Of a stretch of 38,981 nt of DNA, positions 4,376 through 34,972 are shown piece by piece. Each line of letters starts with the position of its first letter. The stretch's first letter is position 1. This DNA comes from Plectonema cf. radiosum LEGE 06105. GTDB lineage: Bacteria; Cyanobacteriota; Cyanobacteriia; Cyanobacteriales; Nostocaceae. The notes under the pieces are model-generated. The model ran no database searches. It was not told where the DNA came from and saw nothing but the letters and a program-made list of their open reading frames with translations. The stretch spans positions 1 through 38,981 of the forward strand of contig NZ_JADEWL010000062.1 of assembly GCF_015207665.1 (NCBI RefSeq), written 5' to 3'. The position numbers and the translations under genes were made by a program.

Positions 4376-4381
4376 TTTGAC

Positions 4382-4950: not shown

Positions 4951-4970
4951 TCAAACCCAGATTTTACCCT

Positions 4971-6407: not shown

Positions 6408-6413
6408 GAATAA
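6390..6413. repeat. Heptad repeat covering the yhaV stop codon
   Basis: ATAGGGAATGGGGAATAGGA, with 3 more bases, overlaps the last codons of the yhaV-like gene; the in-frame TAG of the repeat ends the protein. Confidence 0.6.
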
Positions 6414-6456
6414 GATGTTATAATAATGTAGTTACAATACTCCCAACTACCAAAGG

Positions 6457-6920: not shown

Positions 6921-8054
6921 TGACCCCAAAATCGCCTGTTTCAACCCCTGCGCCATCTTCTGCGGGGTATAATCAGCAATAATCTCTTGAGAATGCAAAC
7001 CCATCTTTTCCCTCAAACTCTCATCTTCTACCAATATCTGCAAAGCCTCACTTAACTTTTCCACATCACCCACTGGTACAAGATAGCCATTCCCTCCATT
7101 CACAACCAAATCATCCGCAGCACCCGCAGCATCGGAACAGACAACAGGTAAACCAGCAGCCATCGCTTCATTCAATACTAGTCCCCAAGTATCGCTTCTG
7201 GTGGGGAAAACAAAAATATCGGCTATCCCGTAATACTGCGGTAAAGTGCTTTGGGGTTGAAATCCAGTAAACACAACATTATCGAGATGATTTTGCTGAC
7301 AATATGAATGATAATCTTGCAATCGCGAACCATCACCAACAATAACTAATGTTACCTGCTTATTTCCTGAAAGCTTGGCAAATGCTTCTAATAATTCTGG
7401 AATACCTTTTTCATCAATTAACCGACCAATGTATAGAATCACACATCCACTAATTCCCAGTTTTTCTTGACAAATTGCCTTTTGCTGACGGTAAACCTGG
7501 GCTTGGGAAGTAAAGAAAACACTATCTACAGCGTTGGCTGCTATATAAATCTTATCTTCCCTCGCTCCCAAATTTAGTAAGTATTTTTTCTGAGCCTTAC
7601 CAGGTATAATATAGCCATCAGCTTGATTGATAATCCAAGTCCTTAGCTTGTGCTTAATGATACTTACAGACCTTTCATCCTTGAGCGTACTTTCACTCCA
7701 AATCAGCAGAGGAGTTTTCGTCATCTCTGCATAAACTAAAGCCAACCAATGAGTAAAATGGTGCCATCCCCCGCAGATAATGACATCGGGTTGTTGCTTC
7801 CACAATTGATAAATAACATCGGGATTGAGAAAAACCGGCGCACTTTGATAAGATTTACCCAGTTGTAAACCCCATAACACTTGATAATTAAACTGTATTT
7901 TCTCCTTTTCTACCAACCAACTTCTGCGGCTTTCCGTCTCTGCGAAAAAGAAGACTGTTAAATCAATCTCTTCATCTTGAGCCAAGTAATTAAAAGGTGG
8001 AATGCGGTAAGGGGAAATAATTTCTGTGAGGATAATTGCTTTGGTTTTTGGCAT
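6882..8054 (-). CDS. GT4 family glycosyltransferase
   Basis: The chosen start is the ATG at 8054, giving 390 residues that begin MPKTKAIILTEIISPYRIPP, the usual N-terminal strand of a GT-B fold. The frame is open further to 8096, but that part overlaps the preceding ABC gene, whose stop is 2 nt before this ATG. The C-terminal GT4 domain shows the donor-site pattern YIGRLIDEKGIPELLEAF and the E-x7-E region as SDTWGLVLNEAMAAGLPV, in which Asp replaces the first Glu. GT4 enzymes transfer sugars from nucleotide diphosphate donors with retention. It is the last gene of the polysaccharide operon. The 3' end runs antisense into a Doc pseudogene, so the last residues (ITSQPRC) may be non-native. Confidence 0.88.
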   Translation of the reverse strand: MPKTKAIILTEIISPYRIPPFNYLAQDEEIDLTVFFFAETESRRSWLVEKEKIQFNYQVLWGLQLGKSYQSAPVFLNPDVIYQLWKQQPDVIICGGWHHFTHWLALVYAEMTKTPLLIWSESTLKDERSVSIIKHKLRTWIINQADGYIIPGKAQKKYLLNLGAREDKIYIAANAVDSVFFTSQAQVYRQQKAICQEKLGISGCVILYIGRLIDEKGIPELLEAFAKLSGNKQVTLVIVGDGSRLQDYHSYCQQNHLDNVVFTGFQPQSTLPQYYGIADIFVFPTRSDTWGLVLNEAMAAGLPVVCSDAAGAADDLVVNGGNGYLVPVGDVEKLSEALQILVEDESLREKMGLHSQEIIADYTPQKMAQGLKQAILGSLQHNRITSQPRC

Positions 8055-8056
8055 AA

Positions 8057-17857: not shown

Positions 17858-18074
17858 CTAATTAGGGATTAAATACGCCCGTATCCCTTTTGTTGTTATT
17901 TTCAAACAGCGCCAAGCTAACCGATTTTTACAGGTAATGGCAACCGTATACTGATAATATTTGCTTATATTCTTTGTCAAGTTATTTGCTTTATGCGGTG
18001 GTTTAAACCATTCAATTAAAGTTGTTTTTGTAATTTCTGCCAGTAAATCATGAGAAAATTCCAGCGAAGGAATT
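17858..18074 (-). pseudogene. C-terminal fragment of the original first gene of the polysaccharide operon
   Basis: A minus-strand frame enters from the inverted repeat of the IS630-type element and encodes RIPSLEFSHDLLAEITKTTL, WFKPPHKANNLTKNISKYYQ and YTVAITCKNRLAWRCLKIT before a TAG at 17858. The flippase gene starts 11 nt later. Composition and spacing look like the end of a real operon gene, but I do not recognise the family. The 5' part is not found on the far side of the transposons (23845 onwards), so it was deleted or moved. Confidence 0.45.
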
Positions 18075-18107
18075 CTAATACCAATTCTTTATGAAGATGC
18101 GCTAAAT
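18075..18107. repeat. Left terminal inverted repeat of the IS630-type element
   Basis: CTAATACCAATTCTTTATGA and the following 13 bases match the right repeat (19202-19234, inverted) at 30 of 33 positions. The transposase stop codon lies inside it. Confidence 0.8.
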
Positions 18108-19171
18108 AGAGCTTCGAGAATGAAGTCGTAAGAGGTTAGAGAAATAATCATGTCTGGGGTGATTGTTTCTAATACAGAGGTTAATTTTTCTCGCAGTTGA
18201 GCAAGGGTTTTAAAATTCTCCCACTTTAATTTGCTCTTGAGGAACTCCCAAAACCTCTCAATTGGGTTTAATTCTGGAGAGTGAGGCGGCTGAAAAATCG
18301 GTATAATATTTTCTGGACAGTCAAGTGTTTTGACTGTATGAAACGAGCCTTGGTCAAATTGTACAACTGCAACATCTGAACCAAGTTCTACTGATAACAA
18401 CTCTAAAAACTTTTGAAAACAATCACCATCCACATGAGAAAATTCGTAGAAAAAACTGTATCCGTTTAAAGGTTCAACAACACCGTATAGGTAAAAATTA
18501 TCACGTTCCCACTGATTTATAGCAACGGGTTTTACACCAGGAGCCGTAATTAAACGTCCAGGAATGGTCTTTAGTCCGAGGCGAGTAACGTCTTGGCACA
18601 TATATCTTAGTGGTTTACCTTCTCCAAATTCTTCCTGCAAGAATTTAAGGGCTAAAGGAAGTTTTTTTTAAAGTGAGATTGGCTTTCTGGATGCTGTTTT
18701 CGACTTTTCGGACGGGGAACTTTCAGCTTTGCTCCTAGTTTATATCTTACGAGTTGGTATACAGTTTTATAAGCAATGTTGAAACAAGTTCTTGTTTCAA
18801 CCATTGTTGAATCTGGCTATAGCTTTTCCAACCTTGTTCGGAGCATAATTTTTGTTTTAAGCGCTCTAAATTCTCTCCACTGACGGCAGGTTCTTTACCA
18901 GGGGCTTGTTTTATACTTAATAACCCACTTCGTCCCTCGTCTTTATACCTTCTTATCCAACGAGTTATGGTTGCTTCGTCCCTTCCTAAACGGTTGGCGA
19001 TACGGCTTAAGCCGTTAGCTTCGCTATCGCCAACCGACTTGTGAGTTGACCACTTTTAAGCCAGTAGAGCATTTGTAATCTTTCTTTGTTGCTTGCCGTT
19101 TTTGCGTATTTAACAGCTTTTTCCAATTCTTCAAGACTTTCTTTAATCTCCACTTTAAATCTCAAGCCCAT
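18089..19171 (-). pseudogene. IS630-family transposase, multiply disrupted
   Basis: The helix-turn-helix half starts at an ATG at 19171 (LEELEKAVKYAKTASNKERL, LKSGQLTSR). It is broken by a 46-bp palindromic repeat (18991-19036) that brings in a TAA. The frame resumes as LGRDEATITRWIRRYKDEGR and is broken again by a one-base loss near 18785; VYQLVRYKLGAKLKVPRPKS follows in the next frame. At A8 (18662-18669) the frame reaches a -1 slippery heptamer A AAA AAC, and a -1 shift would join it exactly to the catalytic part, LPLALKFLQEEFGEGK. That part (18089-18640) has the DDE residues: MCQDVTRLGLK, QFDQGSFH and HSPELNPIERFW. IS630 elements are known to use such frameshifting, so only the first two lesions are certainly damage. 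Confidence 0.78.
18991..19036. repeat. 46-bp palindromic repeat inserted in the transposase
   Basis: Outer arms CGGTTGGCGATA and TATCGCCAACCG enclose an inner perfect palindrome CGGCTTAAGCCG and TTAGCTTCGC. It interrupts the transposase HTH domain between LTSR and LGRDEAT. It is related in sequence (GCGATAGCGAAGC) to the repeat at 25014. Confidence 0.7.
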
Positions 19172-19201
19172 AACCTTTAAACCAAACGCACCCTTATTTT
19201 A

Positions 19202-19234
19202 ATTTAGCGCAGCTTCATACAGAAATGGTATTAG
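19202..19234. repeat. Right terminal inverted repeat of the IS630-type element
   Basis: Inverted partner of 18075-18107 with three mismatches; it ends in GGTATTAG. Confidence 0.8.
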
Positions 19235-19239
19235 TATTA

Positions 19240-19277
19240 GGGGTAATGCTAGAGAAGCTGTCACGAAGTGCCAACGC
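19240..19277. repeat. Left inverted repeat of the Tn3-family transposon
   Basis: Starts GGGGTAATGCTAGAGAAGCT; the first 34 positions match the right end except C/T at position 25. Confidence 0.85.
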
Positions 19278-19290
19278 CTCTGAAATCCCT

Positions 19291-20001
19291 TCACACAGGG
19301 AATTTCACCATCACTTGGTCATAGATTTCTTGAGCTTCCCCAATGCTCAACCTTGAATATACTTCTAAGGATTGCCGGGAAGAATGCCCCGAATACGGCT
19401 GGATTAACGCATCATCAATCCCTTGTTTTTTCAACCAAGTCAGCAGAAAGTGGCGCAATTGGTGGGGTGAGATGGGCTTACTTAGCCCCGCTTCTTCTGC
19501 GTACTTCGCCAAAATCTTTCTAATTCCTCGGTCGCTATACTTGCGTTTCCAGTTAGACTCAAACAGGTAGGTGGCTTGTTGTTGAACCATCCGGTCAACG
19601 TGCATTGCTAAAACTTCTTTAAATGGAACCGGGAAAGGAACAATTCTATCTTTACCTCCCTTACCCGAATTAATCCGAATTTGACAGCGCTTAAAATCTA
19701 CATCATCTAACCGCATATTTACTAGTTCGCTGACTCGTACTCCCGTGTAAAGTAGAGTTTTGATAATCACCATATCCTGTACGTTCCGGGTTTTCCAAAC
19801 CGCTTCATAGTAGCGTTTAATTTCCTCTTCGGTTGGTACGTATGGTAATTTTTTAGTCTTAGTTGATACTTCTACTTCCAGTTCTTGACGCAGATGTTTA
19901 AAAATACTTTTTAGATAGTTATAATCCGGTCTTTCGCCACGCAAATATTTCGCCAATTCTTTGGCTTTCTTCTTGGCTGGTGTACGTTGGAAATTCATCA
20001 C
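19291..20001 (-). CDS. Tyrosine recombinase of the transposon (TnpI-like resolvase)
   Basis: A 236-residue integrase-family recombinase with the complete catalytic set: Arg89 in TGVRVSEL, a Lys in GKGGKDR (114-118), His180/Arg183 in PHQLRH, His206 in YSGHSS and Tyr215 in SLEVYSRL. The N-terminal core-binding part is short (~50 residues). Its ATG overlaps the tnpA stop by 4 bp, so it belongs to the transposon's operon. In Tn3-family elements of the Tn4430 kind a tyrosine recombinase resolves cointegrates; that role is inferred here. No resolution site could be identified. Confidence 0.85.
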
Positions 20002-21689
20002 ACTACCTCCAGTTTGCGGTCAATTTTTAATCGCTTGCTCAGGTCTAGCTGAAAAGTTCCGTAGGGATTGACATGACCGTAAATTAACGGTGTCAGCGCT
20101 CGTTGGTCATTGATATTTAATTTTTTAGACCAAGCTGGTTCGGAAAGAACCTCTTGCAACATTGCATACTTAATCATTTGGTCGTACTGTTGGCGAATCA
20201 ACTCCCAGTTGATGGGACGAGTCAAAACCAGTTGTAGATGGGGGTAAGCACTTGGATTACCAGTTTCTGGACGATACAGTTTCTGCCGGTGAATTCCCTT
20301 AAGACGAGGCATTAACTGAAAACCAAGCAAATGACAGAAAGCGAATGCCACTTCACTTTGTCCGTGACTGTCCACAAAGTTCTTTTTCACCGTCATTTCT
20401 GTATCGTGGCGCAGCACTCCTTCAATCATGGCAGCGACTTCAGAGGAGGAGCAGGTTTTAAGTTGGGAGTAGATACAGGTTGATTTCTTCTCAACGTGCC
20501 AGTAAATCATGACTCCCCGTCCACCATAACGGATATGCCATTCCGTCATCAGATTTTGATCCCAAGCTCCAAACTTTTTGGAGTCACTTGCACAAGTAGT
20601 AGTCCCTTCTCCCCAAACTTCAGTTAAACGTGCTGTGAAAATCGCATTTACAACTTTGGTTATGGCATTCCTTAATTGCTCTTTGTTAATAAATCGGCGC
20701 TTGATATAGCGTAAGTCATAAAAGTTAATACCGTCCGTACCATCACTCACCCGCTTTAGTCCCGTATTGGTTCCCAAACCGTATAAGCACAGCAACAAGC
20801 GTTTTTGTATGGTTTCGTAATCTAAAGCTTCCCGTGATGCGACACTTTTGAAGCATTCTGTAAATCCAATACGTAAATCAACTTCTTTCAAAATGTCCAA
20901 CAAACTGGTCATTGGCCATCGGCGAATGAGTTCTGTTTTCAATCGCAGAATATTCACGGGTTCCGGTTGTTTGTCCAAAGGAGAAAGACAAATCCAACCG
21001 TTATTTTTAGTCAAAATTTTAACTGATGGGTTTTTGGGCAATCCATCATTTAAGGTAGCAAGAGATTCCATCATCCCTTGTTTTAGAGGTACGATGAACT
21101 CTTCAATTGATAACGGCTGCTTTAATGCTTGGTAGTAAGTTTCCCGTTGCTGTTCAAAATCACTAGGTAAATCTTCATCAGGATTACGGTAGCGGTTAGC
21201 TCCCACAACCCAGATTTCTTTGCAGCGCAATCGGTCTCTCAGGACTTGAAGAACGCTAATTTCATAATTAATGCGATTGATGCGTTCGTTACCGTCTGGG
21301 TCTTTCTCCAAGAGAATCTCCCGCCAACCGCTTTTGAGTACCCCTTCAATTGGCACTTCGTCTTCTGGTGAATAGTACCTTTGTTTGCTATCGGCATATT
21401 TTTTCAGCAGTTCTAAAGCCTGAATCACCGGACGGTGGACATCATTATTAGAACGGAACTCTAGAACAGCAAGCAATTTTGGGACTATGCGTCGGTAGTG
21501 GCGGCTGTAGGAAGAACGAATTACCGTGTGTACTTTTTCACGGTAGGCAGTGCCGTTGGCTTTAAATTCTTTGACTAAATCTTTTAGGGTTTGTTCGCTA
21601 ACTACTGGGTAAATGACTTCTTTGACTGTCCCAGAAGGTTGTTCAAGACTGGCATCGGCGATACGGTAAAGTACTTCCCTTGAGAATGT
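19998..21689 (-). pseudogene. tnpA: Tn3-family transposase TnpA, 5'-truncated
   Basis: The frame is open from 21689 (after a TGA at 21690-21692) to the stop at 19998, about 563 codons; family members have ~1000. The first natural start inside is only a TTG at 21476, while homologous-looking sequence already begins upstream ([40 protein letters not shown]), so the whole N-terminal half is missing. The DDE domain is present: [40 protein letters not shown], and the end [20 protein letters not shown]. TnpA cuts and joins the 38-bp ends. The break falls 1-4 bp from the start codon of the divergently placed NACHT gene, so arrival of the cargo removed the 5' half. Confidence 0.82.
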
Positions 21690-21693
21690 TCAA

Positions 21694-23643
21694 ATGGCGG
21701 GAATAGCAGGACGTGACCAGAAGGTGACTCAAACTCAAATAAACGGTCAGGTTATTTCTGTGACGGTGTATGACTCCATTCGTGTAGATGGACTGGGTAC
21801 AGATCATGTTAATCAGGTAGAAAATATTAATTCTTCAAAGCGGGAATATAAATGGCGTAAATGTTTGCTCAGAAGAGTTGAGGTTTATTGGATTGAAGAA
21901 CATTTAAAAACACTGCTTCATAGAAAAGTTTTGATTGAACTTGGACTGGAAAAGCGATTCGATCTCGTACAGCGTCCTTTCAGCCATGTAAGGGAGGAGT
22001 CTCTTAAAAAATCCGGAGAACCTTTACCTGAAGGCACAAGAGTAATTGATTTCTTCAACCAAATGGGTGAGGGGCGAACTTTACTAATTCTAGGAGAGCC
22101 TGGGTCTGGGAAAACTACAACTCTCGTCAAATTAGCACAGAGTCTAATTGCTCGAATTGAGAAAGATCCAACTTTGCCTATTCCGGTAGTATTTGATTTA
22201 TCTTTGTGGGCAAATAAACGAGAAACAATTGCAAAATGGCTGGTTGAAGTACTCTTTGATGAATATGGTATTACTGATAAGTCTATTTGTGAAAAATGGA
22301 TTAAAGAGGAACAATTAATACTGCTTCTAGATGGGCTTGATGAGGTAAAAGCGGAGCATCGTAATAATTGCCTTCTAGCTTTGAATCAATTTATTCAATC
22401 ACATGGCATGACAGAGATAGTCGTATGTTGTCGTATCCAAGAATATCAAGCTATCTCCAACTATTTAAAACTCCAAGACGCAATTTGCATTAAAACTTTG
22501 ACTGCCGAGCAAATTTACGAATACCTCGAACAGTTTGGCGAACAATTGGTTGCTTTGAAAACTTTGCTTCAACAAGATATCGAACTGCTGGAATTTGCAA
22601 AATCGCCTTTGATTTTGAGCGTGATGAGTTTGGTATACCAGGGTTGTTTACTAGAAGATTTACCTCAGCCAGCTTCTTTACGAGAAAACTTCCATCAAAA
22701 GTTGTTTGATGCTTATATTGAGAAAATGTTTGAGCGCCGACGCTCTTCAAGTCAACAATACAAGAAGTCACAAGCAAAATATTGGTTGGCTTGGTTGGCT
22801 TCTAAGATGGTTGAGGAGTCACAGACAAAATTTGTGATTGAGGGAATAAAACCTGAATGGCTAAACTTTCGGCAGTATGTACTATATGGCATTAGCACTA
22901 GTTTAATTACTGGCTTTAGTAGGTTACCCGTAGCATTATTTATTACAGGATTGTTCTTTGGAATGATTATGTTGTCATTGGACAATCATGATTATTTAAA
23001 GCAAAATATACATCATTTTGTTAAAATATACTTAGCCACAGCGTTAATTTTATCAATACTCTTTGAATATTTTACATTAAGGGATATAAAGTTTATTGAA
23101 ACACTTCAATGGTCATGGATTAATGTAAAGGAACATATAAAGTGGTTGCTCCAGTTACTATTTAATAGTGAACATACTCGGCTTAAGAGTTACACTACGG
23201 GTTGTTTGAATATCTTCATATTCGGACCAATAATTTTTCCATTATGGGTCTTAATTATAGTATTTGGTATTCCAACTAGTTCGATAATTATTCCAGAACC
23301 CGAAAAAGAGAAAATAGTTCCAAATCAAAGCGTGTGGAAGTCACTTAAAAATTCTATAATTGGTGTTTTGATTGGCGTTCTAATTGGTGGATTAATTGTC
23401 GAAGCATTCTATTGGTGGATTTATTTCATAACGCCTGCTTTTGACCCAGAGTTTGATTTTAATTTTTATAATCTGAAAATTGTACAAACTATCAAGTACC
23501 TTTTCATTGGATTGAGTGGACTGATTGGTTGGGTATCTTACGGTGGTCGAACCTGCATACAACACTTTTACTTGCGCCTCATTCTTACCTTAAAAGGTTA
23601 TACACCTTGGAATTATGCCCGCTTCCTCAAATATGCTCAGTAG
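21694..23643 (+). CDS. NACHT-family STAND NTPase with C-terminal membrane segments
   Basis: A 649-residue protein. Residues ~50-130 form the cyanobacterial NACHT linker (RVEVYWIEEHLKTLLHRKVL, then IELGLEKRFDLVQRPF). The NTPase has Walker A GEPGSGKTT (134-142) and Walker B LILLLDGLDEV (208-218), then VVCCRIQEYQ and winged-helix-like regions. About five hydrophobic segments follow, for example LPVALFITGLFFGMIMLSL, YLATALILSILFEYF, FIFGPIIFPLWVLIIVFGI and IGVLIGVLIGGLIVEAFYW. Bacterial NACHT proteins act in anti-phage defence. A TAG at 23641 stops the frame in the middle of the usual tail: in-frame downstream codons (to 23745) read GGSYRFIHRMLMEHFAQM, the conserved family end. The protein is thus ~33 residues short unless the stop is read through. 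It is cargo of the Tn3 element. Confidence 0.88.
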   Translation: MAGIAGRDQKVTQTQINGQVISVTVYDSIRVDGLGTDHVNQVENINSSKREYKWRKCLLRRVEVYWIEEHLKTLLHRKVLIELGLEKRFDLVQRPFSHVREESLKKSGEPLPEGTRVIDFFNQMGEGRTLLILGEPGSGKTTTLVKLAQSLIARIEKDPTLPIPVVFDLSLWANKRETIAKWLVEVLFDEYGITDKSICEKWIKEEQLILLLDGLDEVKAEHRNNCLLALNQFIQSHGMTEIVVCCRIQEYQAISNYLKLQDAICIKTLTAEQIYEYLEQFGEQLVALKTLLQQDIELLEFAKSPLILSVMSLVYQGCLLEDLPQPASLRENFHQKLFDAYIEKMFERRRSSSQQYKKSQAKYWLAWLASKMVEESQTKFVIEGIKPEWLNFRQYVLYGISTSLITGFSRLPVALFITGLFFGMIMLSLDNHDYLKQNIHHFVKIYLATALILSILFEYFTLRDIKFIETLQWSWINVKEHIKWLLQLLFNSEHTRLKSYTTGCLNIFIFGPIIFPLWVLIIVFGIPTSSIIIPEPEKEKIVPNQSVWKSLKNSIIGVLIGVLIGGLIVEAFYWWIYFITPAFDPEFDFNFYNLKIVQTIKYLFIGLSGLIGWVSYGGRTCIQHFYLRLILTLKGYTPWNYARFLKYAQ

Positions 23644-24069
23644 CATATCTTTATGCAAAAACAAGGTGGTAGCTATAGGTTTATCCATAGGATGTTAATG
23701 GAGCATTTTGCTCAAATGGAGTTGGAACGAAAGCAGAATCGATAACCCTATAGCAAATTTTATGACTTAGCAATGCTGAAATCTCCTCTATGGAAGGTTT
23801 TCAGGAACAGTGGCACTTCATGACAGCTTCTCTAGCATTACCCCAATAAATCACGCTTCAACATTATCTTTTCGTTTTTTAGTCCTATGCTCACTTAGCT
23901 AAAACCCTCATTATTACGTTTAACTACTCCTATGCTCACTTTCATTTAAGTTGCTTGTGTGTAGTATAGCTGCACAGTACCTACGGTGAGCGCCTGTCGC
24001 TAATAGTGTTCTACTTGTACATCTGGCTGTAGTGTAAAATTGTAATACTCCCTTCGGAAGTTAGAAGTT
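23644..24069. other. Region between NACHT and xisH: transposon end and 14-bp direct repeats
   Basis: It holds the stranded NACHT tail (to 23745), the right Tn3 end (23807-23844) and two copies of TCCTATGCTCACTT (23883-23896 and 23928-23941). No gene is seen. CTCCCTTCGGAAG just before xisH is a short inverted repeat. Confidence 0.6.
23807..23844. repeat. Right inverted repeat of the Tn3-family transposon
   Basis: The reverse complement starts GGGGTAATGCTAGAGAAGCT and matches the left end closely over 38 bp; CTGAAA just inside is also shared. Confidence 0.85.
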
Positions 24070-24100: not shown

Positions 24101-24487
24101 ATGAGATTAGCTTTGGAAAAGGATGGGTGGAATATTACAAATGACCCCCTATATATTAACTTTGGTCAAGTTCAGATGCGTATCGATTTGGGAGCAGAAA
24201 AGTTAATTGCAGCTGAAAAGGAAGGAGAAAAAATCGCTGTTGAAATAAAAAGTTTTCTAAATCCATCAGCTATCACTGATTTTCATGCGGCTCTGGGACA
24301 ATTCCTTAACTACCGCACTGCTCTTCGGGCAAAAGAACCAGAACGTAAGCTATATTTAGCTGTTGATATAGAAACCTATAATGATTTTTTTAAGCTTCCA
24401 TTTCTACAGCTTCAAATTCAAGAATTTCAATTAAAACTAGTAGTTTACGATACTGAAATAGAGGAAGTAGTAAGATGGATAAGTTAG
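24101..24487 (+). CDS. xisH: XisH-like PD-(D/E)XK protein, N-terminus frameshifted
   Basis: XisH was named as a control factor for excision of the fdxN element in heterocysts, yet xisH/xisI pairs exist in many copies unlinked to that element. The protein has RIDLGAEKLIAAEKEGEKIA followed by VEIKSFLN, the D...ExK nuclease-like core, and ALGQFLNYRTAL. The normal N-terminus MSAKDKFHD lies just upstream from an ATG at 24070 but in another frame: an extra C in GACCCACATGAG shifts it, since without it the join would read HDPMRLALEKDGW. The protein shown uses the internal ATG at 24101 and lacks about 10 residues. It overlaps xisI by 13 bp. Confidence 0.85.
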   Translation: MRLALEKDGWNITNDPLYINFGQVQMRIDLGAEKLIAAEKEGEKIAVEIKSFLNPSAITDFHAALGQFLNYRTALRAKEPERKLYLAVDIETYNDFFKLPFLQLQIQEFQLKLVVYDTEIEEVVRWIS

Positions 24488-24810
24488 AAAAATATAGAGA
24501 ATATGTTCAGCAACTTTTGGTAAAGTATGGTAGCTATAAACCTTCATACGGAGATGTAGAGGTAGAACAGATATTTGATACTGTACGCGACCATTATCAA
24601 CTTGTTAATGTAGGCTGGGAAAATAAACATCGTGTTTATGGTTGTTCAATACACATAGATATCAAAAATGAAAAAATTTGGATTCAGTGGAATGGAACAG
24701 AAATAAATATTGCTGAAGAACTAGTTTCGATGGGGATTCCCAAACAAGATATTGTAATAGGATTTCATTCACCATTAAAAAGGCAATTTACAGATTTTGC
24801 TATGGGTTAG
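24475..24810 (+). CDS. xisI: XisI-like protein
   Basis: A 111-residue protein typical of the XisI family: MDKLEKYREYVQQLLVKYGS, VEVEQIFDTVRDHYQLVNVG, RVYGCSIHIDIKNEKIWIQW, then GTEINIAEELVSMGIPKQDI and VIGFHSPLKRQFTDFA. It overlaps the end of xisH by 13 bp, the usual arrangement, so the two are translated together. A direct part in excision is shown only for the fdxN element of Anabaena; a toxin-antitoxin-like role for the pair has been suggested, and here that is inference. Confidence 0.9.
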   Translation: MDKLEKYREYVQQLLVKYGSYKPSYGDVEVEQIFDTVRDHYQLVNVGWENKHRVYGCSIHIDIKNEKIWIQWNGTEINIAEELVSMGIPKQDIVIGFHSPLKRQFTDFAMG

Positions 24811-24938: not shown

Positions 24939-27900
24939 CTATCTTTCAAATTCCTGTAACGCTTTGTTTAGTCCGTAAACTCCTGTTTGGGCTATACAAT
25001 CAACTATATCTAGACAGCGCGATAGCGAAGCGCTGCTGCAAGCAGATCGCAATTTTTTATCTTTGCTTTGGCTATAAACTCGAATCAATAATTTGCTGAT
25101 TTTATCAGCATAAGGAATATGACTAGCGTCACTACGATTATCTGATTTAGAAATCCTGACTATTTTTTCACAAATAGAACAGGTAATATCTGGAAGTTTC
25201 GCCGTTGTTTTGTCAAGAGCATGAATTAAATCGCGATAATTAGTTGCAAATGCACTACTTTCAACAAAATCTTCAACTAATTGGCGATAAATTCCTAATT
25301 CATCTCTCTCAAACTGGAAAAAACATCTAGCAGCTTCTGCACGAACTTTTTCATCTACATCATTAAATAGCTGAGTTAATTTATTCTCACAAAATTGACG
25401 AAAATGTGCAGATTTTAAATTATCTACAAAGACTGTGGTGGCTGAAATACGATGCTGCTCTGTGCTAGAAAGGCAATTTTCTGCTAATGGATAAGCTTCT
25501 TCTATTACTAAAGATGCTCTACAAACTTGCTGAGTAACAACTTTTATTACTTCAGGTAAATTAGAAGTAATCATTCGCTCTAATATTGGCATCAATACTT
25601 GAAAATATTTTGGTAAAACATAATATAAAAATCTTTCCACAGTTGGTGTACCTAAAATATCATCTTCTGTTTGGCAAAGTTTTATAAAAAGACTAACAGC
25701 CAAATCATGATCATAATTCAATACAGCCGTTAAAGCTTCAGCTGCACAGCACTTAACACTAATGGAAGGGTCTTGGATTATTTGCTCTAAGTATCGCTGA
25801 AAGTAAACAGTACGGCTTTTATCGGCAAAAATAAGTTTTGCGATCGCGCTGACAGCAGCACCCCTTGTTGAGTTAATTCCGAAGCTGACTATATTGCCAC
25901 TATTATTTGTACGCCAAGATTCTTCCTGTGGATTCGGGTCATTTAATGCATACCAAATCAAAATTTCAAAAGCTTCTTCACTCCATTGTAATTTTGATAG
26001 CTTGTTAAATAACCATGCAATCGAACGACCGCAGGGACGATTAGGTAATTGGTGGCAACGTTGACATACTTGGAGTGCGGTTTCAACATCTGTACTAACT
26101 TCAGCAATACCAGTTAGAATCGCATCAAAGTATGATGAATTAGCATTGTCTGGAATTTTCCATATTAAAGATGCAAAACGTAATGGTTGTTTTTTAACTT
26201 GATTTTCTAAATTACTTGATAGTTGATGCGCTCCTCCTATCAGTTTACCAGTACGTTGAAATAATGTACCCAAATCACCATAATCATAGTGAGCAATAGC
26301 TTGTAACCATTGCTTATCACTCATTTTGTCTGCTGCATCTTTAGGTATTGGAGATTTAACAAGTGAAGCTTCAAGCGAATCTGGCGGTTCGTTTTCTTGT
26401 AATATTTCGATTCCCTTAGTATCAGGAAATTTACGTCGCCATTCTTGCAATCTACGAGTAGCTAATTCTGAACGTCTAGAAGAATCAATAGCTTCCAACA
26501 AAAGAAGTTGTGCTTCACCTCGACATATAAAGCCTTTCGCAGTTTTTTCAAACTCAGTGTAATAATTAAGAATAATATCTTCGAGCTTAGATAACTTTTC
26601 CTCAGAGGAATGGGGAGTAATTGATTTTAATAAAAGTTGGGTTGCCCAATAAGGTTCATTACCAATAACTGCACTTCTACATAAATCTCCTCCCGTTTCT
26701 AGTCTGAGAGGTTGCTCGCAAAGATAATCAATAGCTTCGTTCGCAAATTTTTCTCCATTTGCAGTATAAGCACGAACTAATAGATACTGTATTGTTTCAA
26801 AATTGGAATAGCGTAAGTGCTGTTCGGTAATCATTGTAAATTCTTCAGGGTCTTGTACAGCTAAATTTGATAAAGCTGCTTCCATATTTTTTAGCAGTAA
26901 TTTATCAATACCATAGTCATCACCATAAATACGAAACCACCAAACAGCATCTTGCCAAGGTGGATTAACTTGCCGGAAAGCAGTTAAATCCATAACTTGA
27001 AGCATGAAAGGCAACACATTTTCAATAAATGCTTGTGGAGCATTACTAGCACTTTCGCTTATTGCTTCCTTGTAATAAGCACTATAAGGAAAAACTCCAT
27101 ACTTTTCTTCAAATGGATTAGGATTTTTAGATTTTAAACTAATATTTAATCGACGATTTAAAAAATGACCTATTGCTTCGCAACTCCATTCTGAATTTTG
27201 CTTTGGTAAATTATAGATAAGACTCCAAAAGTCTCGTTGAATGTTTCCATCATCCGTTTGGCTATCTAATATACCTATATCTACTAAACGTAGGAATAAA
27301 TCAAAAAAACGTCTTCCAGTACCAAATTCTGCAAAACTGGTTAATTTTACAAATCTTTGCAACCACCTTTCCGAATTACCAACAAAAGGTTCCAACAACT
27401 CAGCAACTCGATCTGGAAGCTGCTTCTGCATAAAAGAAAGTAGCGTTACCGTTTTGTCAATGTGACTCTCGTTTTCGTCTTGCAGCCACTGTTCAATTAT
27501 CCCTAGACTATCTAACAACTGAAACCAGTGAATAGAAGTGTTCAAAATAACCCATACTTCCTTGCTGAGAGGGTTTTGAGAACACATCAGTTCTTTGATT
27601 ATTTCCCATTTTTCTTCTGTGGGATTATCCAATGTTTCTAATAGGGCAATTACTACCTTTTTCAAATGGAATCTAATATCTGAACTATTAAGCAGTTCTC
27701 GCAGATTTTGTAGATAACCATCAAAATTTTCCTCTCGTTGATGGATGAGAATTTGCCTAACTTGAGCGCGACGAAACAAATGTTGCTCACTACATCGTAA
27801 AAACGTTAATAGTTCTTGACCACGATATGCAAACCGACGGGCAAAAGCATAATCAAAAAAGCTTTCATGGAAAAACGAAATACGTTTATTTTCCCAAGTT

Positions 27901-29510
27901 AATATATGCTCGGAAGCCATTGCCCTCGCATCATCAGCAAATTCATCAACAACGCTTTCTGGAGCAGATAAACTTTGTTGTTGCTGGCTGCTCATATAGT
28001 CACATAAGCGATCGATAACTTGAGTCCATTGAACCGAACAACCGAGACGTTCTCGTAATTTGCCTTGCTTTTTGCTCCAAAACTGGTCGTATAGTTCCTT
28101 TGCTGTTTGAAACAATACAGCATCTACAGTAGAATCTTCAGCTATTTCTGCCAACAAGCTCAAATGCAAGGGTATGGATAATAAGTTAAGCTGCTTTTCA
28201 GTTAGTCGCGTGGTTTCTAAACCTAATTTGGTAACAACATCTCTGACCGTGGAGTGAGGAAGACGATTAATAGCGATCGCCTTAGCAACACCATTTTTCT
28301 CGTCAATCAAACGTTTTAATCTATTATCATTATCCAAATCAAACTTGCGACAAGCTAATAATAAATGGATGTTGGGATGTGCCTGGGCTTGTTTGATAAT
28401 CTCGAAGATACAATCGAAAAATTGAGGATTGCGACCTGATGCAAAACTCACGGCATCAAGTTGATCGATAACAAGCACACAATCTCGACTTTGGGCGATA
28501 TTAGCTAAAACTATCGCAGGAGAGCCAGGTAAACCCAACTGTTCCCCTAATTTATCAGGTAGCGGCATTGCTTCCAAGCGATCGACACGAAATGCAAGTA
28601 CGGGAACACCTTGGTTGTGTAGCTTTTCCAAAACTTGCAACATCACACCGCTTTTGCCAACTCCAGCTTCTCCGACAGCTAAAATGCTTTGTTTCTTTTG
28701 GGTGATGAGTTGCTCAAATGCAGCTTGCGCTTCATTACGAGGAATAATATTACCTCCAATAGCCCTTTGCTCGGTTAAAGAAGAAATGTAAATATTATTT
28801 GCATTTTCAACCGCAGCTAAAACATGAGGATCTTTTCCCCACTGACGACGACGATAACCTCTTTCCTGTAGTAAATAATGCCAAATATCATGTGCTGTTA
28901 GTTCGCAATGAATTTTTTCCAAAGCTAACTCAGCAAGTTCAATTCTGATCGTTTTTGGGTCGCCCTCTACTAAAGCGGCGATACGGTTTTCTACTGTTTC
29001 AACTAGAACATCTTCGCCAAATGTTACCACCTTCACACGTTTCAAAGCTTCAAAAGCAGCAATTTCCGAACAATTTTCCCATTTTTTACGCAGTGTGTTG
29101 AAATGACCAAATAGCGTCTTATTAAGAAAATCGCGCTCAAATTCCGTCCAAGATGCAGCACCTCTGGCTCTCTGGGCTAACTCTCCCAACTCATCCGCAT
29201 CTTGAGTAGAAACAAATACACAGATAACTTTAGGATTGCTAAGGCTTTTCCAAAAATCCGATAAAACCTGAACTTGTTTATCCTCCAATGCACTGAGTGT
29301 CCAGCGTCCCCGTCCGCTCCTTTGACGCTTAACTTGATGGCACTCCAACTTCTTATTTTTACTAACAAAAAACTCGAAAGCATCCTCACCAGGTTTTTCT
29401 AGACGGATAGAAGTAGCTTTCTCATCCATGACATCAATGATACAATGCACAGTCCAACGACCTTCATAGCGGTTGCCGATTTTGTCAGTTTCTCCTCCTG
29501 GTAAGGGCAT
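24939..29510 (-). CDS. STAND NTPase with N-terminal Cap4-like nuclease (Avs-like)
   Basis: A 1523-residue protein in three parts. Residues ~5-210: a PD-(D/E)XK nuclease of the Cap4/DUF4297 type, with GGETDKIGNRYEGRWTV, Glu38 in SIRLE, FEFF, and HQVKRQ (Lys61). Residues ~245-560: STAND NTPase with Walker A GEAGVGKS (~282), Walker B CVLVIDQLDAVS (~347), LLLACRKFDLD and a winged-helix region ending SFFHESFFDYAFARRFAY. The remaining ~950 residues are all-helical, HEAT/TPR-like, suited to sensing a ligand. This layout is that of Avs-type anti-phage proteins, in which target binding triggers oligomerisation and DNA cleavage; the target here is unknown. The C-terminus RSACSSASLSR (25014-25052) is encoded by a small dispersed repeat inserted in frame. 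It is monocistronic as far as seen. Confidence 0.82.
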   Translation of the reverse strand: MPLPGGETDKIGNRYEGRWTVHCIIDVMDEKATSIRLEKPGEDAFEFFVSKNKKLECHQVKRQRSGRGRWTLSALEDKQVQVLSDFWKSLSNPKVICVFVSTQDADELGELAQRARGAASWTEFERDFLNKTLFGHFNTLRKKWENCSEIAAFEALKRVKVVTFGEDVLVETVENRIAALVEGDPKTIRIELAELALEKIHCELTAHDIWHYLLQERGYRRRQWGKDPHVLAAVENANNIYISSLTEQRAIGGNIIPRNEAQAAFEQLITQKKQSILAVGEAGVGKSGVMLQVLEKLHNQGVPVLAFRVDRLEAMPLPDKLGEQLGLPGSPAIVLANIAQSRDCVLVIDQLDAVSFASGRNPQFFDCIFEIIKQAQAHPNIHLLLACRKFDLDNDNRLKRLIDEKNGVAKAIAINRLPHSTVRDVVTKLGLETTRLTEKQLNLLSIPLHLSLLAEIAEDSTVDAVLFQTAKELYDQFWSKKQGKLRERLGCSVQWTQVIDRLCDYMSSQQQQSLSAPESVVDEFADDARAMASEHILTWENKRISFFHESFFDYAFARRFAYRGQELLTFLRCSEQHLFRRAQVRQILIHQREENFDGYLQNLRELLNSSDIRFHLKKVVIALLETLDNPTEEKWEIIKELMCSQNPLSKEVWVILNTSIHWFQLLDSLGIIEQWLQDENESHIDKTVTLLSFMQKQLPDRVAELLEPFVGNSERWLQRFVKLTSFAEFGTGRRFFDLFLRLVDIGILDSQTDDGNIQRDFWSLIYNLPKQNSEWSCEAIGHFLNRRLNISLKSKNPNPFEEKYGVFPYSAYYKEAISESASNAPQAFIENVLPFMLQVMDLTAFRQVNPPWQDAVWWFRIYGDDYGIDKLLLKNMEAALSNLAVQDPEEFTMITEQHLRYSNFETIQYLLVRAYTANGEKFANEAIDYLCEQPLRLETGGDLCRSAVIGNEPYWATQLLLKSITPHSSEEKLSKLEDIILNYYTEFEKTAKGFICRGEAQLLLLEAIDSSRRSELATRRLQEWRRKFPDTKGIEILQENEPPDSLEASLVKSPIPKDAADKMSDKQWLQAIAHYDYGDLGTLFQRTGKLIGGAHQLSSNLENQVKKQPLRFASLIWKIPDNANSSYFDAILTGIAEVSTDVETALQVCQRCHQLPNRPCGRSIAWLFNKLSKLQWSEEAFEILIWYALNDPNPQEESWRTNNSGNIVSFGINSTRGAAVSAIAKLIFADKSRTVYFQRYLEQIIQDPSISVKCCAAEALTAVLNYDHDLAVSLFIKLCQTEDDILGTPTVERFLYYVLPKYFQVLMPILERMITSNLPEVIKVVTQQVCRASLVIEEAYPLAENCLSSTEQHRISATTVFVDNLKSAHFRQFCENKLTQLFNDVDEKVRAEAARCFFQFERDELGIYRQLVEDFVESSAFATNYRDLIHALDKTTAKLPDITCSICEKIVRISKSDNRSDASHIPYADKISKLLIRVYSQSKDKKLRSACSSASLSRCLDIVDCIAQTGVYGLNKALQEFER
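25014..25052. repeat. Small dispersed repeat (GCGATAGCGAAGCGCTGCTG) inside the STAND gene
   Basis: GCGCGATAGCGAAGCGCTGC followed by TGCAAGCAGATCGC, with partly self-complementary halves, resembles a common cyanobacterial repeat. It encodes RSACSSASLSR near the C-terminus of the STAND protein. Confidence 0.55.
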
Positions 29511-29769
29511 ATAATTGCTGTTCTCTCTATCGGGGATGTGATTTGTTCTTATTTATTTCCAAATTTACAACTCAAACTTGATGATATTATGCCGTAATTG
29601 AGGAAGGCAATTGCTTTCATGTTCGCATAACGTACTACTTACCCTTGTGCCATTAAACCATTGATTTAAGATTTATGTCCTTGCATTGAAAAAATATAGA
29701 CGTAAATTAATTTGAATAAACAAGTCTTTCAATCCAATAACATCTCTAAGTATTTCGGAGTAGCGATCG
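29511..29769. other. Gap between the STAND gene and the Trypco1 gene
   Basis: AT-rich, with no ORF or RNA recognised. A HIP1 site (GCGATCGC, 29763-29770) abuts the Trypco1 stop. Confidence 0.5.
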
Positions 29770-30156
29770 CTATTTATTTTCTTCTTCTTTAGGAAATGAG
29801 CATTCGACAGTAATCTTCATGTTGCTTTTCGCTGTACCTTTGGTCACATAGGGTACTCCTGCTTCTCCACCCAGTTCGATACCAAACTCTAAGGTGACTT
29901 TATCTACATTGGCATTTGCGATCGGCATTTGTTTAAATGCATTTAAGGTATAAATTGTGTAAGCGCGAATAGTGCTTTGAATTGCTTGGAAATTTTGCAC
30001 CATTTGCTTGCGGATTGCTTCCGGACTCATTCCCTTTTCATCTAAAGCTTCTTCTTCCTCTTCTTCAGTAAGGACAGGGGGAATATTCACGTCTTCCGAT
30101 GCTTCGATGTAGATGATTGTGTTGTCATCTAGTTGGATAGGTGTAAGTTTGGTCAT
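29770..30156 (-). CDS. Trypco1-domain protein (CU044_2847 family)
   Basis: A 128-residue acidic protein. PIQLDDNTIIYIEASED gives the opening strand pair, a middle helix (RKQMVQNFQAIQSTIRAYTI) follows, and the end VDKVTLEFGIELGGEAGVPY ... SNMKITVECSF carries the 'vEFG.klg.eaG' signature of the trypsin-co-occurring domain 1. In published comparative work this domain accompanies trypsin- or caspase-like proteases and STAND NTPases in bacterial conflict systems, probably as an adaptor or regulator. Here it is divergent from a caspase-like gene, sharing a 178-bp promoter region, and close to an Avs-like STAND gene. The role is inferred from this association. Confidence 0.72.
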   Translation of the reverse strand: MTKLTPIQLDDNTIIYIEASEDVNIPPVLTEEEEEEALDEKGMSPEAIRKQMVQNFQAIQSTIRAYTIYTLNAFKQMPIANANVDKVTLEFGIELGGEAGVPYVTKGTAKSNMKITVECSFPKEEENK

Positions 30157-30334
30157 GCGATTTTGGAGTTTAGATTGAATTACAGTATTTGGCGTATCGC
30201 GCAGAAGACAACAGAAGAATCTACAATTTTTAATTTAAACGGAATTTCAGCAAAATTACTTGGAAATCATGGTAAATATGTTGTAACTGTATAAGTAAAA
30301 TCATTACTCGAAAAACTAAGTAAGGCTTGCTGCT

Positions 30335-31774
30335 ATGAGTCGAGACGCTTTGGTTGTTGGCATTAATACCTATAGTTACGAGCGTCTGAGTAATTTAACA
30401 GCACCAGCTATTGATGCAGAAGCGGTAGCCAAACTATTGGAAAACTACGGTGAGTTTAACGTGAAACGGCTACCTGCGGTTAAGGATAAGGAAAATAATA
30501 CCAGTCGGGTAGGGCAGAAAACTCAAGTTACTTTAACTCAATTAGAAGCAGCCATAGTTCAATTATTCAAACCTGAAGGCAGAAATATTCCCGACACCGC
30601 GCTTCTGTATTTTTCCGGTCATGGGTTGCGGAAAAATCAAGGCATTCAAGAAGGATTTTTAGCCACCAGTGACACAAACCCAGATGTGGGTAACTGGGGT
30701 TTGCGGTTGAAATGGTTGCGGGAATTGTTGCAAGAAAGCGAAGTTCGGCAGCAAATTATTTGGCTCGATTGTTGTTACAGTGGGGAATTGCTCAACTTTG
30801 CCGAAGCCGATCCAGGAGATAGAGGAAAAGGTCGAGATAGGTGTTTTATTGCCGCTTCACGGGAGTTTGAGCCAGCTTTTGAGGCGATCGGGACAAATCA
30901 CAGTGTCCTCACCACAGCGCTGCTACAGGCTTTGGAACCGAAAGAGAAACAGGTGACAAACTATACTGTAGTTGATGTCATCGACCAAAATATCGCCAAA
31001 TTTCCCCAGCGTCCGATATTTAGCAATTCTGGGGGAGTGATAAATCTTATTCGTGGAGTACCAATTATTGAGAATTCTTCATCTCAGCGCAGGAATAATA
31101 TATATAATGAAGAGATATTAGAAGAATCCAATGAATCAGAGGAAGCAAACTTTGAGGAACCAAAAGGGTTCAATTCATCTACTGATGATTTCTATAGATT
31201 TCTTAGGGAAAACTCTTCGATTTCTCCAGAGGAAAGTAAGCTTTTTTTGTCAACTTTAATTATTATTGTTATCTTAGTTAGTTTTGCTTCTTGTATTGGA
31301 AATGTTTTTGTAGAATCGAGACGCGAAGATATGAAAGAAAATTTGATATCTGCTCATAGACTAGGTAATAATGAACTAGTAAAACAAATGATAATAAAAA
31401 TATTTAATGAAAATCCAAGTACTAGCAACATGGAAAAAATAGACTTAGCTAAAATAGATTTAAGTGGTGCAAATATTAGTGATACAAACCTTGTAAATTT
31501 CAATTTTTCTGATGCCTACCTTATAGGTACTAATTTCAGTAACACTAATCTTCGCAATGCTAATTTAAAAAATGCGAATCTCCGAAATGCCGACCTTAAA
31601 AATGCCAACCTTGAAGATGCGAATCTTGATGGAACTAATTTAACTGGAGCTAATATTGAAAATGCAATCCTTACTGGTTACAACAATTTGAAACCAGAGC
31701 AAGTAACATCTGCTAGGGGTTGGAAAATGGCAAAATATAATGAAGAGATGAGGGAAAAATTGGGACTGAAATAG
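30335..31774 (+). CDS. Caspase-like protease (C14) with membrane segment and pentapeptide repeats
   Basis: A 479-residue orthocaspase-type protein. The p20-like domain (1-245) has the catalytic His96 in YFSGHG and Cys147 in WLDCCYSG. A low-complexity acidic linker (EEILEESNESEEANFEEPKG) leads to one hydrophobic segment near residue 310 (LFLSTLIIIVILVSFASCI), then pentapeptide repeats (NANLKNANLRNADLKNANLE, DANLDGTNLTGANI), a right-handed beta helix used for binding. The N-terminal protease would face the cytoplasm if the N-terminus is inside, with the repeats across the membrane; topology is not certain. Bacterial caspase-like proteases can act as death effectors in conflict systems. AAGG sits about 11 nt before the ATG. 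It is divergent from the Trypco1 gene. Confidence 0.88.
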   Translation: MSRDALVVGINTYSYERLSNLTAPAIDAEAVAKLLENYGEFNVKRLPAVKDKENNTSRVGQKTQVTLTQLEAAIVQLFKPEGRNIPDTALLYFSGHGLRKNQGIQEGFLATSDTNPDVGNWGLRLKWLRELLQESEVRQQIIWLDCCYSGELLNFAEADPGDRGKGRDRCFIAASREFEPAFEAIGTNHSVLTTALLQALEPKEKQVTNYTVVDVIDQNIAKFPQRPIFSNSGGVINLIRGVPIIENSSSQRRNNIYNEEILEESNESEEANFEEPKGFNSSTDDFYRFLRENSSISPEESKLFLSTLIIIVILVSFASCIGNVFVESRREDMKENLISAHRLGNNELVKQMIIKIFNENPSTSNMEKIDLAKIDLSGANISDTNLVNFNFSDAYLIGTNFSNTNLRNANLKNANLRNADLKNANLEDANLDGTNLTGANIENAILTGYNNLKPEQVTSARGWKMAKYNEEMREKLGLK

Positions 31775-33024: not shown

Positions 33025-34908
33025 TCATGATTCATCATCGAAAAATGCCAGTTTAGCAAATTGTACGGTTGGAAGTAATACAGAACGGTCTAAGTATTTA
33101 TTACCGCGCTCGCAAGATGTTTCGGGGCTAAATAAGCAAGCGTGACAAGCTGCCCAATGCAGAGATGTATTACCTTGGAAGGGTGTATGTTCGGCGCATA
33201 AGGGGTCGGAAGCACACAAGCCCATTTGTTCTAAAGCTTGGTCGATATGATGTCCTAAAGTTAACGGCTCTCCCAAGCTGACTAATCCCCCTAAAGTACC
33301 TTCGCTGTCGGGAGCGGCAGTGTAAATTAATACTCCCGCCATTGTTTCACCTTCTTCTTCTGGTCGTTTGGAATAAATTCTTTCTTTAAGACTAGCTGCA
33401 TTGTAACCGCATTCGATAGCCATTTGCCGCATCAATGCATGAGCGAAGGAATGAAGTAAAATGTAGCGAACACTGGGAAATCTGACTTGTTCGGGATCGA
33501 GGGAACGAAGTTTACACCAACTGTTATGAGCTTGAATTGCTTGATTTTCGTAAGCTTTTAGTTGAGTGTCTTTTTCCCAGTGGTGGAGTTTACTTTCTTT
33601 GAATTGAATAAAAATTCCTTCTCCTTTAACTTCATTTGCTGGAACCCATTTAGGTTTATTCCGACACAGAGGAACTTGATGTTCGTTGAGAATTTCTCCA
33701 GCATCAATGAAATCACCGGGGGATTGAATTCGGGTAAATCCGATCAGAGCGCGGACTTCTCGCAGTCTTTGAGCGAGGACTACTTTTTCGATATACTTGG
33801 AATAACCCGTTGGTGGTGAAACGGTTTTTAATTGGAAGTCGGGAGTATTAAGACGGGGGTTAGCGTTGGAAAAAACTGACCATTCTGGGGTTTTTAAATC
33901 TCTAATAGCTGATTCGTCTGTATTTTCTGGCTGATGTTGTTTATTTTCGATTATTTGCCAAACTTTTTCGATGGAATGCTTTGATAATTCTTGTAATAAT
34001 TCTGGAAATTGATTTGTAGCTTGAAAAACTTGAATCAAGGTTTCTAAAGTAGCTTGATTGGGTGCTTTCCCCAAAGAAGTCCAATATTTTTCGACTGTTT
34101 GTACTAACTGATTGGAAGTGGTAGGTATTGATAAAGCCGATAAAGTGATGGGAAACCAACTATTTGATGCTCCGAGCAAAATAGTTTTCATTTGTTTTTC
34201 GCACTCGTCATCAAAATTGCGTAAATGGGGATTACGAGCGCGACACCTGGGCATATTTTTCTTGCCTTCCTCACCAAAAGCATCCGATAATCGACGACGA
34301 GCATCACAGCGATCGCACTTTACCTCAATATCTGTAGGAGAACCGGAAACACCCAATTCTTCTAACCGCAACCTTGGATTACAGCTAGTATCTCCCCTAT
34401 GAACGAAATAAACCCAAGGAAAATCATCTAAATGTCCTTTTTCGCAAGATACTAGAAATTTTGCAGGAATTACTGTAGGCTCGTGTTTAGCTTTGGGACA
34501 TTGTTTGTGAACGTAACGGGTTTGATCTGGTCTATAAGCATTTTCTTTAAGTTGAAAAAAACCAGATTGTAAAGGAGCGAGTAACCGACATTTAGGACAT
34601 ACCATCCATCCCGGAAAAGGAGCTACCGGAATTCCGATTCTGTTATCCTCATTAAAAGGACTTGATTGACTTACTTCCTCTTCCGGTACAGGTGGAGCAA
34701 GTAATTGTTTAACCTGAAATCCCAACTCCTTACGAACAGCAGCTAATAAACGTTCTTCGCCTAATTCCTTCGTACCATTAACACTCCAATCATCCAACCC
34801 CATCACCATAGCGGAAAGATTGGGTAAATCCAAAACCGCACCCACTCCAAAGGAAAATAATATTTGGCTTGGTCTAAGTTCGCCGACTCTATACTTATAA
34901 TTTGACAT
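33025..34908 (-). CDS. drmB: DISARM protein DrmB (DUF1998)
   Basis: A 627-residue protein starting MSNYKYRVGELRPSQILFSF, GVGAVLDLPNLSAMVMGLDD, which is characteristic of DrmB. It holds several Cys pairs likely to bind zinc (CPKCR at 104-107, CEKGHLDDFPW, CDRCDARRR) and a C-terminal DUF1998 domain (ILLHSFAHALMRQMAIECGY, GVLIYTAAPDSEGTLGGLVS). DrmB forms a complex with the DrmA helicase; in DISARM the core is DrmA, DrmB and the PLD protein DrmC, with a methyltransferase. It begins 17 nt after the drmA stop and is surely co-transcribed. No drmC follows: the region downstream (32829-33024) is empty and the next gene is relE on the other strand. Confidence 0.9.
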   Translation of the reverse strand: MSNYKYRVGELRPSQILFSFGVGAVLDLPNLSAMVMGLDDWSVNGTKELGEERLLAAVRKELGFQVKQLLAPPVPEEEVSQSSPFNEDNRIGIPVAPFPGWMVCPKCRLLAPLQSGFFQLKENAYRPDQTRYVHKQCPKAKHEPTVIPAKFLVSCEKGHLDDFPWVYFVHRGDTSCNPRLRLEELGVSGSPTDIEVKCDRCDARRRLSDAFGEEGKKNMPRCRARNPHLRNFDDECEKQMKTILLGASNSWFPITLSALSIPTTSNQLVQTVEKYWTSLGKAPNQATLETLIQVFQATNQFPELLQELSKHSIEKVWQIIENKQHQPENTDESAIRDLKTPEWSVFSNANPRLNTPDFQLKTVSPPTGYSKYIEKVVLAQRLREVRALIGFTRIQSPGDFIDAGEILNEHQVPLCRNKPKWVPANEVKGEGIFIQFKESKLHHWEKDTQLKAYENQAIQAHNSWCKLRSLDPEQVRFPSVRYILLHSFAHALMRQMAIECGYNAASLKERIYSKRPEEEGETMAGVLIYTAAPDSEGTLGGLVSLGEPLTLGHHIDQALEQMGLCASDPLCAEHTPFQGNTSLHWAACHACLFSPETSCERGNKYLDRSVLLPTVQFAKLAFFDDES

Positions 34909-34917
34909 AGTTTGTAG

Positions 34918-34972
34918 TAAGGGATTTATCCCTTATTATGATCATTTTGAGGGATAAATCCCTCACTACTAG
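34918..34972. repeat. Pair of palindromic repeats at the drmA stop codon
   Basis: Two copies of a GTAGTnAGGGATTTATCCCT-type palindrome: one at about 34918-34941, read on the plus strand (AGTAAGGGATTTATCCCTTA), and one at about 34951-34972 in the opposite sense (GAGGGATAAATCCCTCACTA). The drmA stop (TAA, 34926-34928) lies inside the first. A third copy is at 38609. Confidence 0.75.

Follow-up and report, generated by a model that had tools for sequence, protein, structure and literature searches.

Transposons of the Tn3 family are best known for their resistance and metal genes, and the family makes a 5-bp target duplication. In Tn4430, tnpI precedes tnpA, and the element has no known passenger gene. 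According to the available text of PMC7157771, terminal inverted repeats in the family are 38 to 40 bp or longer, and in Tn4430 tnpI and tnpA run colinearly, irs lying upstream of tnpI. The elements described here resemble the Tn4430/Tn5401 (TnpI) type in having a DDE TnpA of about 1000 aa, ends of about 38 bp and a tyrosine recombinase. They differ in carrying a NACHT passenger and in gene order: instead of the tnpI-upstream-of-tnpA arrangement of the Tn4430 subgroup, tnpA comes first and is followed by the recombinase gene, at the element end. Tn3 elements on plasmids of Priestia megaterium, Paenibacillus bovis and Deinococcus aetherius share the tnpA-recombinase order, with cargo upstream of tnpA, as well as GGGG or GGCCC ends. 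Their cargo, however, is not NACHT but metabolic or metal-resistance genes (Priestia carries nucleotide-metabolism genes, Paenibacillus arsenic and metal genes, and Deinococcus amino-acid genes).

Among described immune systems, the bNACHT proteins (bNACHT25, in the available part of PMC12169576) offer a parallel in that they, too, combine a NACHT domain with the Walker A and Walker B motifs. EAD-type adaptor systems, as presented in the accessible text of PMC7159879, parallel the short N-terminal tag common to the NACHT protein and a neighboring small protein. The Tn7-like transposons with defense cargo of PMC8649781 are likewise transposons with immune-type genes, but they use another transposition system, and NACHT is not named in the main text of that paper. 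No link between Tn3 and NACHT was found in the open-access literature searched, a scope outside which most subscription journals fall.

Boundaries and contents of the unit

The window, a stretch of 38,981 nucleotides from the cyanobacterium Plectonema cf. radiosum LEGE 06105, holds a unit of 4,605 bp (19240-23844) bounded by two inverted repeats that agree at 34 of 38 bases, and at 33 of the outer 34; both ends begin with GGGG. The 6-kb region contains an inverted exact 24-mer, and none of 200 base-composition shuffles contained one. The inverted arms as a whole (19240-19328 and 23756-23844) measure 89 nt and are 78% complementary, with similarity weaker beyond the outer 38 bp. The unit encodes a tyrosine recombinase, a broken Tn3 tnpA and a NACHT gene.

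18071-19238, minus strand: degenerate insertion sequence with a DDE_3 transposase fragment and 37-nt arms; it adjoins the Tn3 unit and is not part of it
19240-19328, plus strand: terminal inverted repeat, recombinase end; the outer 38 bp are the Tn3-type repeat
19291-20001, minus strand: tyrosine recombinase, presumed cointegrate resolvase, frame intact
19998-21673, minus strand: tnpA remnant; its N-terminal third is missing, and so are 108 residues internally, at the break 20162/20163
21674-21678, no strand: boundary of the tnpA and NACHT homologies, read as a deletion junction; it spans about 5 nt by protein comparison and up to 13 nt by DNA comparison
21679-23643, plus strand: NACHT gene, 5'-truncated, first ATG at 21694, early TAG at 23641; homology continues to 23736
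23756-23844, minus strand: terminal inverted repeat, NACHT end

The degenerate insertion sequence, which we take to be IS630-like, has its arms at 18071-18107 and 19202-19238, and its end lies one base outside the repeat at 19240. To the right of the transposon are a XisH/XisI pair (24101-24810) and, in a row, a large STAND/HEAT protein (PADLOC candidate PDC-M54A, 4.1e-21), a Trypco1 protein and a caspase-pentapeptide protein (24939-31774). DrmB and DrmA, presumably the core pair of DISARM, are adjacent on the minus strand at 33025-38948 (PADLOC 1.6e-80 and 0). At 5636-6407, a YhaV-type toxin gene (PF11663) and a small upstream gene with no Pfam match are likely to form a toxin-antitoxin pair.

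A more complete relative lies in the MAG of Xenococcaceae cyanobacterium MO_234.B1 (contig JASJEK010000126.1, our contig L051; hereafter G280). This unit of 6,588 bp has matching 37-bp ends at 2537-2573 and 9088-9124. Repeats of about the 38-bp Tn3-type length are present in both copies, with 34/38 identical bases in the window and 37/37 in G280.

2627-4756, minus strand: G280 NACHT gene
4770-5213, minus strand: G280 gene for a 147-aa protein
5440-8367, plus strand: G280 tnpA, a frame of 975 codons
8368-9075, plus strand: G280 recombinase gene

The G280 NACHT gene occupies the same slot and orientation as that of the window, amid unrelated genes, and in both copies NACHT homology stops 20-25 bases from the extended repeat at the NACHT end. 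Identity between the two units is 84% for the recombinase, 76% for tnpA and 41-45% for NACHT. The initial annotation had proposed a 4.6-kb unit between two 38-bp repeats starting with GGGG, containing a tyrosine recombinase, a 5'-truncated tnpA and a TM-tailed NACHT gene. The repeat match and the shuffles uphold the ends; matches to PF00589, PF01526 and PF05729, together with four hydrophobic segments, confirm the contents; and the recurrence in G280 of the layout, matching ends, recombinase, full-length tnpA frame and NACHT gene argues for a single unit. Comparison of the two copies thus supports the reading of the window unit as one Tn3-family element with a NACHT gene inside its ends.

The annotation had also proposed a search for empty sites with a 5-bp duplication, and neither feature was found. 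The 5-base flanks of the window unit (TATTA and AATAA) agree at three of five positions and those of G280 at one of five, so that neither shows a target duplication; no empty site was detected in 31 genomes and six fetched stretches. Support for insertion as one unit is therefore indirect. Of ten elements for which both ends were located, three are flanked by an exact 5-bp duplication (G126, G168 and the Deinococcus aetherius element, with AACTA), those of Priestia, Paenibacillus and C. bowmanii have flanks agreeing at four of five positions, and no duplication is seen in G174, whose left end is uncertain, or in Saprospiraceae. The missing duplication fits an old or rearranged copy, without proving it. 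In G588, the left and right flanks of the window unit lie on different contigs. Intergenic sequence of the right flank (23864-23942) recurs, partly in tandem, in the same-genus genomes G588 and G589; G515 has it once.

Nine of 291 genomes contain a 30-base core of the ends (up to three mismatches), and none contains its reversed control. In G174 and G217 the core has tnpA and recombinase genes beside it, and two places in G160 combine it with recombinase remnants; other matches stand alone. The initial annotation had recognized that the repeats, if found alone elsewhere, could be a dispersed repeat unrelated to a transposon. Some do stand alone, but the genes beside the core in G174 and G217, and the remnants in G160, led us to reject that explanation.

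Transposase, recombinase and candidate resolution sites

The recombinase matches PF00589 (4.6e-33) and has a conserved ATG start at 19998, beside the tnpA stop. The tnpA remnant, though truncated, is recognizable as the large DDE TnpA of the Tn3 family (PF01526, 8.8e-92, profile positions 1-244 of 389); against NF033527 (1.2e-143) it scores 480 bits, below the 500-bit cut-off, as expected for a truncated protein. Its frame is open for 563 residues. It lacks the first 334 alignment columns present in relatives and, through a second deletion overlooked in the initial annotation, 108 residues near the end that are equivalent to G280 residues 816-923. The catalytic residues of Tn4430 TnpA are given as D679, D751 and E881 in the available text of PMC9579193; by hand count on the alignment, E881 corresponds to residue 899 of the G174 protein, within the block absent from the window. 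With both the front third and the position of the catalytic glutamate gone, the window TnpA is very likely dead twice over.

The tnpA gene of G174 is complete (999 aa) and matches the Tn4430 TnpA structure PDB 7qd8 (1.5e-74). Its identity with the remnant is 92% over the main part and 83% over the tail, so that it matches on both sides of the internal gap. Relative to G174, dN/dS is 0.050 for the remnant and 0.064 for the recombinase; these similarly low values imply that decay is recent relative to that split. Thirteen residues that Hyella retains are missing from a conserved stretch of the DDE domain in the G280 tnpA. Thus the G280 element may also be inactive, and no NACHT-bearing copy with an undamaged transposase has been seen. 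Of the other copies that the initial annotation proposed to look for, those with a full tnpA are represented by the full-length frame of G280 and the complete gene of G174, and those with different cargo by the plasmid relatives. In the LEGE 06105 genome itself, a 323-contig draft, no full TnpA of this subgroup was found; its two other Tn3 transposases are 26-27% identical, and the 15-16 kb around them contain no window-type repeat at up to 11 mismatches.

Matches to tnpA at E 1e-20 occur in 68 of 291 genomes of the order, across Tn3 clades. Twenty-one tnpA loci were compared, comprising the window and 20 fetched regions, several of them short contigs. A recombinase at least 80% identical and in the direction of tnpA is present at six of these, and a NACHT gene (E 1e-8) at two, the window and G280; no recombinase of the window type was found in G126 or G168. 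A phylum-wide search of an evenly drawn sample located the recombinase in 2 of 386 genomes, the LEGE 06105 genome included. The recombinases of the Priestia, Paenibacillus and Deinococcus plasmid elements are 63-72% identical to that of the window; six of the 25 plasmid recombinase records were examined. The gene order of the subgroup is cargo, resolution-type site, tnpA, tyrosine recombinase, end, with tnpA and the recombinase gene abutting or overlapping.

The motif AAGTTCC-N16/18-GGAACTT (up to two mismatches) lies just upstream of tnpA, twice each in the Priestia, Paenibacillus and Clostridium elements and once each in G174 and G280, where base-composition shuffles give an expectation of 0.05-0.30. 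The Deinococcus element has a weak site (two mismatches) upstream of tnpA and one match inside the gene. Among the chosen elements and stretches that were searched, no site was found in the Saprospiraceae element, G217, G126 or G168, nor in L143, L053, L057, L060, L107 or L063; L058 and L148 have one weak site each. In the window, the site upstream of tnpA is absent, and one match with two mismatches lies inside tnpA (20054-20085; expectation 0.05). From its place and form, the motif is a plausible resolution site for the tyrosine recombinase. Palindromes inside the ends were considered as recombinase sites without success, three of 22 ends reaching shuffle p <=0.01 and none being shared. Elsewhere in the genome, contig C174 at about 26287-26554 (L019 4288-4555) holds an element of about 268 bp in which two Tn3-type ends surround two resolution-type sites, with no gene seen; this fits a Tn3-derived miniature element. 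The TIME and MITE elements of PMC4133298, as described in its accessible text, are better matched by this element than by the window unit, which has 4,605 bp and genes.

The NACHT gene, its junction with tnpA and its probable partner

The window NACHT protein matches PF05729 (1.1e-11); it has a NACHT domain with Walker A and B motifs and 649 open codons. Hydrophobic segments follow the domain, four in the window and six in G280. Matches in PADLOC and NCBIfam are weak, most being confined to the NTPase, and no solved structure matching the G280 NACHT was found at E 0.01. An antiphage role may be supposed by analogy with the family. Homology to G280 starts at 21679, ahead of the first ATG at 21694, and runs on to 23736, beyond an in-frame TAG at 23641-23643 that was overlooked initially and that ends the protein about 31 codons early. 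The window NACHT is thus cut at both ends.

At the protein level, homology to tnpA extends as far as 21673-21674 and that to NACHT begins at 21679, and the two genes meet head to head within their coding parts, about 5 nt apart. The initial annotation was correct in placing the NACHT start within a few bases of the tnpA break. Its further proposal, that the cargo had replaced the front of the transposase, gives way to another. Since the NACHT gene of G280 lies upstream of an unbroken tnpA frame, the two starts being 0.7 kb apart and the genes pointing away from each other, a deletion that ran through the starts of both genes and took the space between them is the best reading of the window junction, in preference to a replacement.

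The space in G280 is occupied in part by the gene for the 147-aa protein, which matches no Pfam family and shares about 36 N-terminal residues with the neighboring NACHT. A match to this partner is present at seven of 26 loci (20 NACHT loci, four plasmids, G280 and the window); of seven plasmid NACHT records, these four were examined. It lies directly upstream of NACHT in six, namely Acaryochloris pREC2, Acaryochloris 'Moss Beach' (where NACHT is annotated in pieces), Nostoc HK-01, L163, L164 and G280; at L160 it lies downstream. The first 36 or so residues of the partner resemble the NACHT start in three plasmids and G280; L163 and L164 showed no such tag where NACHT begins. Besides G280, the partner-bearing loci contain no match to the tnpA or recombinase of this subgroup in the fetched stretch. 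The window NACHT probably remains from a module of two genes, one for NACHT and one for a protein of about 147 aa with the same N-terminal tag, and the tag may work as a homotypic adaptor, in the manner of the effector-associated domains treated in the available part of PMC7159879. If such a module is ancestral, the partner and some of the tag were lost in the window deletion.

Origin of the unit and spread of NACHT genes

The window unit is, with good probability, a decayed deletion derivative of a NACHT-bearing Tn3-family transposon with the order cargo, site, tnpA, recombinase, end. The ancestor would have carried NACHT, and probably a small partner gene, between the left end (the cargo side) and the site, transcribed away from tnpA. 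Comparison with the relatives shows two deletions: one removed the front third of tnpA and the NACHT start, along with all that lay between them, and another the 108 tnpA residues around the position of the catalytic glutamate. The ancestor would have moved by replicative transposition using its repeats and TnpA, with the paired AAGTTCC-N16/18-GGAACTT sites immediately before tnpA serving the recombinase in cointegrate resolution. The copy that remains would be stranded, and mobile only with a related TnpA from elsewhere. Its intact cargo may have been a membrane-linked NACHT switch, with the shared N-terminal tag joining the partner protein. It counts against this explanation that G280 is known from a MAG contig.

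It could be argued instead that NACHT belongs to a neighboring host defense island and that the repeats bracket it through rearrangement or two partial Tn3 insertions. The right side of the window does hold XisHI, the large STAND/HEAT protein, the caspase, DrmB and DrmA; there is no target duplication; and at least 18 NACHT matches occur in the genome, 12 of them over the cut-off including the window's (150 of 205 candidates scored), so that one near a transposon is not rare. A rearranged island does not readily account for the same layout with matching ends amid the unrelated genes of G280, however, nor for the 20-25 bases that separate NACHT homology from the extended repeat in both copies, with NACHT pointing away from tnpA. 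We regard this origin as unlikely, although it keeps some weight because the relic lies at the edge of a defense neighborhood. The 649 open NACHT codons with their Walker motifs and the intact recombinase frame might also suggest that the short tnpA and NACHT form a stable domesticated unit, in which NACHT is expressed and selected and the ends were kept by chance. Such a unit is hard to reconcile with a junction that took the gene start and upstream region and with a stop that cuts the conserved tail; the absence of a sigma-70-like promoter at 21300-22000 is a weak argument in the same direction, as shuffles expect only 1.1. Domestication therefore seems quite improbable.

Within the reading as a decayed transposon, it is an even question whether the two NACHT copies belong to one lineage or are independent captures by a transposon of varied cargo. 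The much lower identity of NACHT than of tnpA and recombinase favors separate captures, as does the variety of cargo in relatives (nucleotide metabolism, arsenic/metal, amino-acid genes). The tree does not group the two NACHTs (5% of 200 bootstrap trees), and six others outscore G280 against the window NACHT by BLASTP, in a set that kept L170 as a 186-aa fragment with a stop in its frame. Yet the G280 NACHT shares the slot and orientation of the window's, has the shortest path to it in the tree and is the best non-self match in a whole-genome search of 291 genomes (four candidates scored in most), and fast evolution of a sensor could produce the same identity gap.

The initial annotation went on to suggest that Tn3 elements with such cargo explain the spread of NACHT genes through cyanobacteria. 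This is not sustained: none of 20 other high-ranking NACHT relatives lies near a Tn3 transposase or an end repeat (up to 10 mismatches) within about 8 kb on each side, or less at contig ends, with NACHT matches considered at E up to 1e-20 and these 20 loci searched without the G280 NACHT as a query. The presence of NACHT on Tn3 is genuine but rare here, an occasional association seen in two cases that are possibly two captures. The broader proposal, that a Tn3 subgroup with tnpA, a terminal tyrosine recombinase and paired sites carries two-gene NACHT immune modules, whose common N-terminal tag would link a membrane NACHT switch to a small partner, between distant cyanobacteria, with the window holding a fossil of one such element, is a tentative one to which we give somewhat less than an even chance. 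Its effect should not be exaggerated: the cases seen are two, and the other NACHT relatives examined lack a Tn3 link. The Tn3 cargo points to a NACHT-partner module, and a Tn3 subgroup with NACHT cargo, if true, would be an added route for immune-type genes between cyanobacteria.
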